The translations under genes were made by a program, and so were the position numbers. From an uncultured Caulobacter sp. (GTDB lineage Bacteria > Pseudomonadota > Alphaproteobacteria > Caulobacterales > Caulobacteraceae), in assembly GCA_913776195.1 (NCBI GenBank), contig CAJYMH010000010.1, forward strand, positions 1 through 64,000: a stretch of 64,000 bases of DNA. The letters run 5' to 3'. The first letter of the stretch is position 1. The number at the start of each line of letters is the position of its first letter. Under the pieces are notes generated by a model. The model had not been told where the DNA came from. It saw nothing but the letters and a program-made list of their open reading frames with translations, and made no database searches. This document shows positions 54,292-58,208 of this stretch, one piece after another.

Positions 54292-56694
54292 GTGCTCAAA
54301 GTTCTGACGTGCCTCACCACCGAGCATGATTTCCGGCTCGTCGTGGTCGCAGCGGTCGTCTGCTTCTCGGCATGCCTGACGGCGTTCCGGCTGTTTTCGC
54401 GCATCCGTGGCTCCCAGGGAATGGTCCGCGCCGCATGGCTGCTGTTGACCGGCCTGGTGGCGGGCTCCGGCGTCTGGGCCACCCACTTCATCGCCATGCT
54501 CGCCTACCAGCCGGGCCTTCCCACCGGTTACGAGCCGATGGGCACCCTGGCGTCGCTGATGATCGCGGTGGTGTTCATCGGCGGCGGCTTCGCGGTGGGC
54601 GCGGCGCGGCGCGACAGCGACAACCAGGTGGCCGGCGGCGTGCTGATCGGGCTTGGCGTCGCGGCCATGCACTATGAAGGCATGTCGGCCTTCGAAACCC
54701 AGGGCCAGCTGATCTGGGAGCACGCCACCGTCGGGGCGTCGGTCCTGTTCGGCGTCGTCGGCGCCGTGGCCGCTTTACTGGTGGCGGGCCGAGCCCGCAG
54801 CCTGAGCCGCCAGCTTATGGCCGGCAGCCTGTTCGCCACCGGCGTCTGCGCGCTGCATTTCACCGGCATGGCGGCCATCACCATCATCCCCGATCCGGCC
54901 GTTGTTGTTCCGGCCCAGCTGCTGTCGGGCGGGGTCCTGACCTTCGCCGTCACCGGCATCACCGGCATGATCGTGCTGGGCGGACTGGGAGCGGTGGTCA
55001 TCGAATCCCAGACCAACCGCTCGGCCGTGGAGCGTATCCGCCGCCTGGCCAACGCCGCCTATGAAGGCCTCGCAGTGGTCGAGGACGGGCGCCTGAACGA
55101 CGCCAACGCCGCCTTCTGCGAGCTGATCGGCGCCCCGCTGAGCGAAATCCAGGGGCTGCGGGTCGAGGGCGAACTGCTCGTCTTCGACATGGGCGCGGTC
55201 CCCGGCATCGGGCATCGCCGCGAGGCGCTGTTGCGCCCCCGGGACGGTTCGCCCGAGATTCCGGTGGAGGTGTTCGCGCGCCTGCTCGACGACGGCCGCC
55301 GCAATGAGACCAGCGGCCTGACGGTCCTGGCCATCCGCGACCTGCGCGAGCGCCGCTCCGCGGAGGAGAAAATCCGCTATCTGGCCGAGCATGACGGTCT
55401 GACGGGCCTGCCGAACCGTCACGCCCTGCAGACGCGGTTTTCCGCCGCCCTGGATCGGGTGGAGGCTTCTGGCGAGGGCCTGGCGCTGCTGTGCCTGGAC
55501 CTGGACAATTTCAAGGACGCCAACGACCTGCATGGGCACGCCGCAGGCGACGCCCTGCTGGTGGAGGCGGCGCAGCGCCTATCGAGCGTGCTGCCCGCAC
55601 CGTCTTTCGCCGCCCGCCTGGGCGGCGACGAGTTCGTGATCGTGCAGATCGGCGGACGCGATCAGCCGGCGGCCGCCGCCGAACTGGCCGCCCGCGTCCT
55701 GGACGTCATGCGCAAGCCCTTCAGCTATGAGGGCCACGAGTTGTCGCTCGGCGTCAGCATCGGGGTCAGCCTCTGCCCCGACGACGGCCGCACCGCCGCC
55801 GCCCTGATGGCCAACGCCGACATGGCCCTGTATCGGGCCAAGGAGGGCGGCCGCGACCGCTATCGCTTCTTCAAGCGCGAGATGGATGAGACGATCCGCG
55901 AGCGCCGCAATCTGGCGCGCGAGCTGAAGGCCGCCATCCAGGCCGAAGAGCTGATGGTCTACTACCAGCCCCAGGCTCGCACGTCCGACGGCGAGGTCTG
56001 CGGCTTCGAGGCGCTGGTGCGCTGGAACCACCCGATACGGGGCATGATCCCGCCCATCGAGTTCATCCCGATCGCGGAGGAAAGCGGGCTGATCGAGGCG
56101 CTCGGCGCGTTCGTCCTCAACCGAGCCTGCGCCGACGCCATCGCCTGGGAGCGTCCGTTGAATGTGGCGGTGAACCTGTCGCCGCTGCAGCTGAACCAGC
56201 CCGGCCTGTCGGCCATGGTCCACGGGGTGCTGATCAATTCCGGCCTGTCGCCGCAGCGGCTGGAGCTGGAGGTCACCGAAAGCGCCCTGTTCAAGGACTA
56301 CCAGCGCGCCCTCGACAACCTGCGCCAGCTGAAGGCCCTGGGGGTGCGCATCGCCATGGACGACTTCGGCACCGGCTATTCGTCCCTTTCGACCCTGCAG
56401 TCCTTCCCCTTCGACAAGCTCAAGATCGACAAGAGCTTCGTGGAAAGCATCCATCGCCACGATCGGGCCACGGCCATCGTGAAGGCGGTGCTGAGCCTCG
56501 GCCGCAGCCTGGACATCCCGGTGGTCGCCGAGGGCGTGGAGACCGGCGAGCAGCTGGCTTTCCTGCGTGGTGAGAACTGCGCCGAAGTGCAGGGCTACGC
56601 CATCGGCCGTCCGGCGCCGGTGCACACCCTGAGCAACTGGACCAACCCGTTGGCTCGCAAGGCTGCGCCGCGTCGCCGCCGCACCGCCGCCTGA
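54292..56694 (+). CDS. MHYT sensor-linked diguanylate cyclase/phosphodiesterase (MHYT-PAS-GGDEF-EAL)
   Basis: MHYT repeats (ATHFIAML, AAMHYEGM, ALHFTGM); RLGGDEFVIV; GFEALVRWNHP; MDDFGTGYSSL. Confidence 0.95.
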   Translation: MLKVLTCLTTEHDFRLVVVAAVVCFSACLTAFRLFSRIRGSQGMVRAAWLLLTGLVAGSGVWATHFIAMLAYQPGLPTGYEPMGTLASLMIAVVFIGGGFAVGAARRDSDNQVAGGVLIGLGVAAMHYEGMSAFETQGQLIWEHATVGASVLFGVVGAVAALLVAGRARSLSRQLMAGSLFATGVCALHFTGMAAITIIPDPAVVVPAQLLSGGVLTFAVTGITGMIVLGGLGAVVIESQTNRSAVERIRRLANAAYEGLAVVEDGRLNDANAAFCELIGAPLSEIQGLRVEGELLVFDMGAVPGIGHRREALLRPRDGSPEIPVEVFARLLDDGRRNETSGLTVLAIRDLRERRSAEEKIRYLAEHDGLTGLPNRHALQTRFSAALDRVEASGEGLALLCLDLDNFKDANDLHGHAAGDALLVEAAQRLSSVLPAPSFAARLGGDEFVIVQIGGRDQPAAAAELAARVLDVMRKPFSYEGHELSLGVSIGVSLCPDDGRTAAALMANADMALYRAKEGGRDRYRFFKREMDETIRERRNLARELKAAIQAEELMVYYQPQARTSDGEVCGFEALVRWNHPIRGMIPPIEFIPIAEESGLIEALGAFVLNRACADAIAWERPLNVAVNLSPLQLNQPGLSAMVHGVLINSGLSPQRLELEVTESALFKDYQRALDNLRQLKALGVRIAMDDFGTGYSSLSTLQSFPFDKLKIDKSFVESIHRHDRATAIVKAVLSLGRSLDIPVVAEGVETGEQLAFLRGENCAEVQGYAIGRPAPVHTLSNWTNPLARKAAPRRRRTAA

Positions 56695-56792
56695 GCACGA
56701 TCGGACCAGGCGCGGCCATCAGCCGCTTTCGCGCGCATCCCATCCTGGGTTAGTGTGCTGACGGGACAGGGGTGGCCCACGTGGAGTGAGCT

Positions 56793-58208
56793 ATGCCCGT
56801 TTTCGGACCCGCCAAGTGGGATTCCGCTCAGTACGGTGTCGGCGCGACCGTCACCTGGAGTTTCGCCGAAGGCGCCCTTGGCGGCCTGCCGTCCGGCTAC
56901 ACCAGCATGACGCCGATCGCCGCGGGCTTCCGCGCCTTGGTCCAGGCCGCCTTCGACGCCTGGGAGGCGGTGGCCAACATCGACTTTGTCTGGGTGGCCG
57001 ACGCGTCTAACGTCAATATCCGGATCGGGGACGCGCCGATCGACGGACGGCCCGGCGCGGGGCAGGGGTCCACCCTGGCCACGGCGCAGTTCTGGTATCG
57101 CGGCGGCGAGATGAGCGTCGCCCAGGTCTATTTCGACGTCGACGCCTATGACCGGGGCAACTTCTACAGCACCGCCGTTCATGAGATCGGCCACGCCATC
57201 GGACTGGAGCACACCACGATCCAGAACGCGGTGATGTACCCGCAGATCACCAGCGCCAATCGTGACGGCGTTCTCACTTCGGATGACCTCGCCGGCATCC
57301 AGACGCTCTACGGCGCCAAGGCCGCTTCCGGGGCCAGCGCTACGGTCAGTGTGCTGCAGGCGAGCTTCGAGCATGTGCTGCGGGTGAACCCGGCCACGGC
57401 GCCCGCGACGCTTGTCCTGTCCGATGGCGCAGTCGTTTCCAATCCCATGAAGGCCTTCGCGGATCTGCTGCCCGGCATGGCGGCGCAGATCGACCGCGGC
57501 GCCCTGAGTCTCGCCGACGCCCGCGCCCAGATCGCCGGCTGGGCCGACACGACCACTTCGGTGGCCAATCTTTCCTATGATTTCTTCACCGGCCGCACGC
57601 CCCGCGAAGACGGCCTGGACTTTCTGGTCAACAGCGGCGGGAACGCCAATGACCTGAACGACCCCTACTATGCGCGGTTCAATATGGAGAACCGCTACAT
57701 CAACTTCGCCGTGAACCTGGGAAAGCTGGGGGAGGGGCGAGCCGATTTCGCTGACGACTATGGCGGTCTCAACCTGCGGCAGGCGACGGCGAAGGCCTAT
57801 GGGGAGATATTCGGGATCGGGGCCACCGACGCCAAGGTCTCCGCCCTTCTGACCGGGACCCGCATAGACTACTTCATCAGCTATGGCGGCGACGGTCAGA
57901 ACGGGACCGGGACCAAGGCGGCCATGGTCGGCTGGCTGCTGGCCGAGGCGCAAAAGGCCGACGAGGGTCCCTATGTGACGGCTAACAACCGCTTCCTCAT
58001 CGACCTGGCGCAGGACGGCGTCGCCCAGTTCAATGTTCACCTGCCCGCGGCCTATGGCGCTTCCGCGCTGGTCGAGGGTTCCGGTAATCTGGAGATGCAC
58101 GCCGAATCCTACTGGAGCAATCCGCAGCTTGACCTGGAGCTCGGGAGCCAAGCTGAGCCTTGGGGCGTTGTGCGGAACCAGGCTGTCGAATACGCCGAGC
58201 TGGTCTGA
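56793..58208 (+). CDS. Matrixin-like zinc metalloprotease with C-terminal RsaA-NTD-like (S-layer/LPS-anchoring) region
   Basis: HEIGHAIGLEHTTIQNAVMYPQ zinc site and Met-turn; downstream SYDFFTGRTPREDGLDFLVNSGGNANDLNDPYYARFNMENRYINFAVNLG. Confidence 0.8.
   Translation: MPVFGPAKWDSAQYGVGATVTWSFAEGALGGLPSGYTSMTPIAAGFRALVQAAFDAWEAVANIDFVWVADASNVNIRIGDAPIDGRPGAGQGSTLATAQFWYRGGEMSVAQVYFDVDAYDRGNFYSTAVHEIGHAIGLEHTTIQNAVMYPQITSANRDGVLTSDDLAGIQTLYGAKAASGASATVSVLQASFEHVLRVNPATAPATLVLSDGAVVSNPMKAFADLLPGMAAQIDRGALSLADARAQIAGWADTTTSVANLSYDFFTGRTPREDGLDFLVNSGGNANDLNDPYYARFNMENRYINFAVNLGKLGEGRADFADDYGGLNLRQATAKAYGEIFGIGATDAKVSALLTGTRIDYFISYGGDGQNGTGTKAAMVGWLLAEAQKADEGPYVTANNRFLIDLAQDGVAQFNVHLPAAYGASALVEGSGNLEMHAESYWSNPQLDLELGSQAEPWGVVRNQAVEYAELV

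Follow-up and report, generated by a model that had tools for sequence, protein, structure and literature searches.

The gene and its conservation

The window, i.e., the whole analysed stretch of 64,000 nucleotides, belongs to a metagenome-assembled genome (MAG) of an uncultured Caulobacter sp., 3.27 Mb in size and 84% complete. One of its genes joins a zinc metalloprotease to the domain by which the S-layer protein RsaA is anchored to lipopolysaccharide (LPS). Such a layout raises the question of whether the product is an enzyme held on the cell surface, an exoprotease released into the surroundings, or a form of the known S-layer protease SapA. The features on which the answer depends are the following (window coordinates).

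56783..56786, + strand: likely ribosome-binding site GGAG, 6 bases 5′ of the ATG (direct sequence reading)
56793..58208, + strand: gene for a matrixin-type metalloprotease with a C-terminal RsaA_NTD, 471 aa (ORF, Pfam, orthologs, dN/dS)
56814..57320, + strand: matrixin-type (M10) catalytic domain, residues ~8–176 (Peptidase_M10; PDB matches to matrix metalloproteinases (MMPs) and karilysin)
57180..57212, + strand: zinc-binding motif HEIGHAIGLEH, residues 130–140 (sequence)
57231..57242, + strand: Met-turn VMYP of the matrixin type, residues 147–150 (sequence)
57321..57551, + strand: linker, residues 177–253, of which 220–253 can also be aligned to the N-terminal region of RsaA
57552..58061, + strand: RsaA_NTD domain, residues 254–423 (PF19198; PDB 6t72/7peo; Foldseek)
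57615..57686, + strand: stretch matching the Ca2+/O-antigen loop of RsaA, residues 275–298, LDFLVNSGGNANDLNDPYYARFNM (residue mapping)
58062..58205, + strand: C-terminal tail, residues 424–471, candidate type I secretion signal (ortholog conservation)

The open reading frame starts with ATG, and its product of 471 aa has a pI of 4.4 and contains no cysteine. A signal peptide is not apparent at the N-terminus (MPVFGPAKWDSAQYG...), which was read by eye, without a predictor. Within the genus, full-length orthologs are present in G013 (85% identity), in Caulobacter segnis FS (G009; 81%) and in G130, and a relative with 54% identity occurs in a Caulobacterales MAG. The dN/dS ratio (NG86) of the gene against the G013 and C. 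segnis orthologs is 0.14–0.15. Because orthologs are found at 85% and 81% identity and evolve at such a ratio, these comparisons indicate a real, intact gene under purifying selection. The gene stands by itself, flanked by genes that read from their sequences as GGDEF-EAL and membrane permease; the same two also flank the ortholog in G013 and C. segnis FS, and the locus is therefore syntenic. The GGDEF-EAL neighbour, located upstream (54292–56694), reads as a membrane protein of 800 aa and has a very similar counterpart in both relatives.

The distribution of the gene across the genus is patchy. Of seven further genomes of the genus with RsaA_NTD, six gave no match to the catalytic domain at E≤1e-10, and in a sample of 24 genomes, none from outside the genus matched at E≤1e-20. 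This patchiness could be taken as a sign of a surface weapon or defence protease directed against neighbouring cells or predators and not against the own S-layer, and a tethered enzyme could act in a contact-dependent manner. However, neither an immunity gene nor a toxin-like neighbour was seen between the GGDEF-EAL and permease genes, and such a role is barely plausible. A paralog, i.e., a second matrixin with RsaA_NTD and with a PPC-like insert, is encoded in G013 and C. segnis FS (L048, L050), where it sits near the RsaA/type I secretion system (T1SS) cluster.

The catalytic domain

The catalytic domain begins close to the start of the protein, and neither a propeptide nor a signal peptide is obvious in front of it. 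Pfam assigns residues 46–174 to Peptidase_M10 (PF00413; E=4.2e-21, 75.9 bits against a cut-off of 24), and the zinc-binding motif is invariant across the orthologs save for one or two variable positions. The protein thus combines the HExxHxxGxxH motif, the Met-turn and the Pfam score of a matrixin-type M10 peptidase, and the N-terminal catalytic region of this type, as named in the original prediction, is borne out. When the whole protein was searched against PDB sequences, RsaA (6t72/7peo) was the best match and the matrixins came next.

The RsaA_NTD anchor domain

The N-terminal domain of RsaA binds the O-antigen with Ca2+, and both a loop of the domain and the Ca2+ have been linked to this binding (PMC6978808). 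The RsaA_NTD model (PF19198) matches the window protein with E=2.7e-63 and 213.5 bits against a cut-off of 27, over profile positions 1–179 of 185. Residues 220–433 align to RsaA 22–252 (chain numbering; PDB 6t72/7peo) with E=4.1e-24, with 86 identities in 213 aligned residues (40%) and 34 in 57 in the core. The RsaA-like domain proposed from the sequence is therefore borne out by the alignment suggested as its check, and the RsaA peptide quoted in the original prediction matches the PDB chain. The loop stretch corresponds to about residues 77–100 of RsaA. Three of the four loop aspartates of RsaA are kept (Asp276, Asp287, and Asp290), while the fourth is replaced by Asn280. In the C. segnis ortholog, conservation is lowest in the linker in front of the domain (58%).

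In the structural comparison, also proposed at the outset, the RsaA NTD was the first Foldseek match (6z7p, 6t72; E about 1e-8). The AlphaFold model used for it, built from 8 sequences, is poor (pLDDT 56), and its geometry is not used as evidence here. The catalytic domains of serralysin and of karilysin/MMPs rank after the RsaA NTD in the same search.

Relation to SapA

A protease with an RsaA-like end is not without precedent. For the C. crescentus protein Sap, a review cites Umelo-Njaka (2002) and Ford (2007); SapA (CCNA_00783) has a model of its own in NCBIfam, NF051884. According to the review, the N-terminal half of Sap is an RTX protease and its C-terminal half resembles the N-terminus of RsaA; although Sap has no clear signal, a type I system appears to secrete it (PMC3034196). 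SapA is removed from engineered strains because there it could edit modified S-layer proteins (PMC8546985). The statement of the original prediction that no system with this layout had been described is therefore wrong, given Sap (PMC3034196) and the NCBIfam model.

The same order of parts would be expected if the window protein were a true SapA ortholog in reduced form, i.e., an S-layer editing protease that has lost the RTX region, and NF051884 does match its C-terminal part with 215.5 bits. This score, however, is far under the equivalog cut-off of 1200, and the best stretch covers model positions 435–627 of 644, which is the anchor part. The serralysin model NF035945 reaches 43 bits against a cut-off of 500, and neither Peptidase_M10_C nor HemolysinCabind gives a Pfam match in the protein. 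The Met-turn reads MYP, whereas that of the SapA-like serralysins reads MSY (YTxMSY). In a tree of 20 catalytic domains, the window protein falls into the matrixin-like group, which is separated from the serralysin-like group by a split with 100/99 support. Moreover, the same MAG holds two separate serralysins on contig C21, which match nearly the whole length of the SapA model with 496 and 401 bits (cut-off 1200). On the grounds of the model score, the tree and these separate SapA-like genes, SapA orthology was rejected, and a reduced SapA is highly improbable. The window protein is best filed, as far as its sequence goes, as a second protease lineage with the same anchor as SapA.

The two SapA-like serralysins with RsaA_NTD on C21 adjoin each other (L019 8749–10662 and 11076–12923, both on the − strand) and have the unusual zinc motifs HEIVHGLGALH and HEAVHSLGVDH.

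Both groups of the tree include members ending in RsaA_NTD as well as members ending in DUF4214. Therefore, two lineages of M10 have each been joined to such an end module.

RsaA_NTD proteins in the genome and in the genus

The MAG contains 17 genes with RsaA_NTD, distributed over contigs C1, C7, C10, C17, C21, C25, C31, and C35 (loci L001–L028). Four of them have the domain at the N-terminus, as in RsaA, and 13 at or near the C-terminus. Besides the window gene, the Pfam partners of the domain in this genome are RTX repeats and Peptidase_M10_C, and many of the proteins have no recognised partner. Several of these genes encode large RTX proteins or products without such a partner. In the genus sample, RsaA_NTD was found in 23 of 61 genomes, in 4 to 29 copies each, with the highest numbers in G031 (20) and in the four genomes in which the window gene occurs (17–29). 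A contig of the IMG/VR viral collection also carries the domain (L156 2001–2501, 64% to the query); it may be mis-called or prophage-flanking.

The position of the domain allows another explanation, in which the chief task of a C-terminal RsaA_NTD would be to aid secretion through the type I exporter or folding for it, after which the protease would be released as a nutrient-scavenging exoprotease. In 12 of the 13 C-terminal cases (12 of the 17 proteins), the domain ends 3–17 residues from the end of the chain, where T1SS signals lie, and it is joined to very different partners; the M10 proteins of the same branch on plasmids have tandem DUF4214 at the same place. Against this, the homologous N-terminal domain of RsaA is the demonstrated LPS anchor, and for its secretion RsaA uses a separate signal at the C-terminus (PMC6978808, PMC8546985). 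In addition, the domain of the window protein and its orthologs is followed by a further conserved stretch, the C-terminal tail. A released exoprotease is thus unlikely, and the surface-tethered enzyme remains the preferred reading.

Comparison with tandem DUF4214

The plasmid proteins mentioned above, matrixin M10 proteins from Sulfitobacter and Rhizobium, have two DUF4214 repeats in the place of RsaA_NTD. HHalign comparison of RsaA_NTD with tandem DUF4214 was not significant with shallow profiles. With deeper profiles, the similarity was weak (P about 8e-4 to 1e-3); both repeats were aligned in order, and none of the 200 and none of the 300 column shuffles reached the real score. A DUF4214 model (pLDDT 93) found phycobilisome linkers (PF00427) in Foldseek with E about 0.1, and the RsaA NTD was not among the 50 matches listed for this model. 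The view of RsaA_NTD as an elaborated tandem DUF4214 is a lead only.

Peptidases and RTX-like proteins also end in DUF4214 tandems at further loci (L104, L105, L107, and G074). The alphaproteobacterium G074 has 39 DUF4214 matches spread over many genes (loci L108–L137), and in most of the genes read, the tandem lies near the C-terminus. In a gammaproteobacterial contig (L101 5848–7596), an M10 ORF is followed by a separate tandem-DUF4214 ORF, possibly as one interrupted gene.

The C-terminal tail and the exporter locus

The tail of the window protein and its orthologs ends with WGVVRNQ..E.AELV (EYAELV in the window protein). It is 73–75% identical in two orthologs, and its end is also conserved in G130. 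Neither the paralogs nor the other proteins of the MAG with a C-terminal RsaA_NTD have this tail. The conservation of the tail is compatible with a type I secretion signal but is no proof of it.

The search for a type I secretion cluster, suggested in the original prediction, found the rsaDEF/O-antigen locus in close relatives, with strong matches to a T1SS membrane fusion protein (MFP), and no counterpart in the MAG of the window (84% complete). In G013, the MFP (TIGR01843, 447 bits) lies on one 55-kb stretch with a neighbouring ABC ORF, an RsaA-like gene and further genes with RsaA_NTD, together with ORFs that read from sequence as TolC-like, GDP-mannose dehydratase (GMD) and sugar aminotransferase. 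In the 84% complete MAG, the T1SS MFP model stayed far below the cut-off, TIGR01842 did not discriminate, as it picked up many ABC proteins, and the rsaDEF/O-antigen region of G013 lacked a counterpart over about 53 kb. The exceptions are other RsaA_NTD genes, one gene next to an RsaA-like gene, and stretches that are short or belong to common ABC genes. Genes of the G013 locus that read as ordinary housekeeping genes are likewise missing from the MAG. Because these ordinary genes are missing too and the MAG is 84% complete, an assembly gap is likelier than a true loss of the region.

Proposed function

Taken together, the sequence and the analogy to RsaA and to the experimentally studied SapA suggest that the protein is probably a secreted matrixin-like M10 zinc endopeptidase tethered to the outer cell face by its C-terminal RsaA LPS-anchoring domain. 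Without a signal peptide, it would exit the cytoplasm unfolded through a type I system of the RsaD/E/F type, and its C-terminal end would guide the export. Outside the cell, Ca2+ would fold the RsaA_NTD domain, which in turn would grip the O-antigen, so that the protease would be held beneath or within the S-layer. Its targets there might be proteins that belong to the S-layer or arrive from outside, by analogy with SapA. Secretion, LPS binding and substrate are all inferred, and four points count against this reading: the lack of RTX repeats, which is unusual for a T1SS protease, the lack of a counterpart of the G013 exporter region in the 84% complete MAG, the Asn280 in place of a loop aspartate, and the C-terminal position of the putative LPS-binding domain.

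At least two separate lineages of M10 proteases carry the S-layer anchor domain, as do many RTX and other proteins. Because of these varied partners, RsaA_NTD looks like a portable tag that places enzymes on the Caulobacter surface. A broader proposal, which is possible but somewhat doubtful, is that in some Caulobacter the RsaA anchor acts as a general surface-display tag. The products of the 17–29 RsaA_NTD genes per genome in the window's subclade, most of which have the domain C-terminal where its position was determined, would then leave the cell and dock on the O-antigen, with tandem DUF4214 as a distant counterpart in other proteobacteria. If so, the surface proteome would be varied, with proteases and RTX proteins, and would not consist of the S-layer alone. 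The portable-tag view opens a testable approach to what sits on the O-antigen besides the S-layer. It also concerns surface-display engineering, in which SapA is deleted (PMC8546985) and in which, for other species, another protease of this kind could cause interference.

Comparison with known systems

The window protein shares parts with four known types of protein. With karilysin and the matrix metalloproteinases, i.e., M10 matrixins, it has in common the catalytic domain and the zinc and Met-turn motifs; unlike them, it has no apparent propeptide or signal peptide and is joined to a surface-anchor domain. With the RsaA N-terminal domain (PF19198; 6t72, 7peo), it shares a full-length domain match with mostly conserved loop aspartates, but in RsaA the domain is N-terminal, whereas in the window protein it follows the protease, and the lattice-forming C-terminal region of RsaA is missing. 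The M10 proteins of Sulfitobacter and Rhizobium resemble it in the catalytic domain (about 40% identity), in the N-terminus (GPKWG...WSFA), in the absence of an apparent signal peptide and in the presence of a C-terminal helical module, which is tandem DUF4214 in these proteins and RsaA_NTD in the window protein.

The closest parallel in layout is SapA, in which a metalloprotease is likewise N-terminal and an RsaA-N-terminus-like domain C-terminal. SapA is a serralysin with RTX repeats, described by a model of 644 positions, whereas the window protein is matrixin-like, has 471 aa, lacks RTX and Peptidase_M10_C, and carries an extra tail of 48 aa. By its domain assignments, it is a counterpart of SapA in which the protease domain differs, and it is one of a large RsaA_NTD-tagged set in this Caulobacter subclade. 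The layout is already known from SapA; what is new here, as read from the sequence, is a protease half from a different branch of M10.
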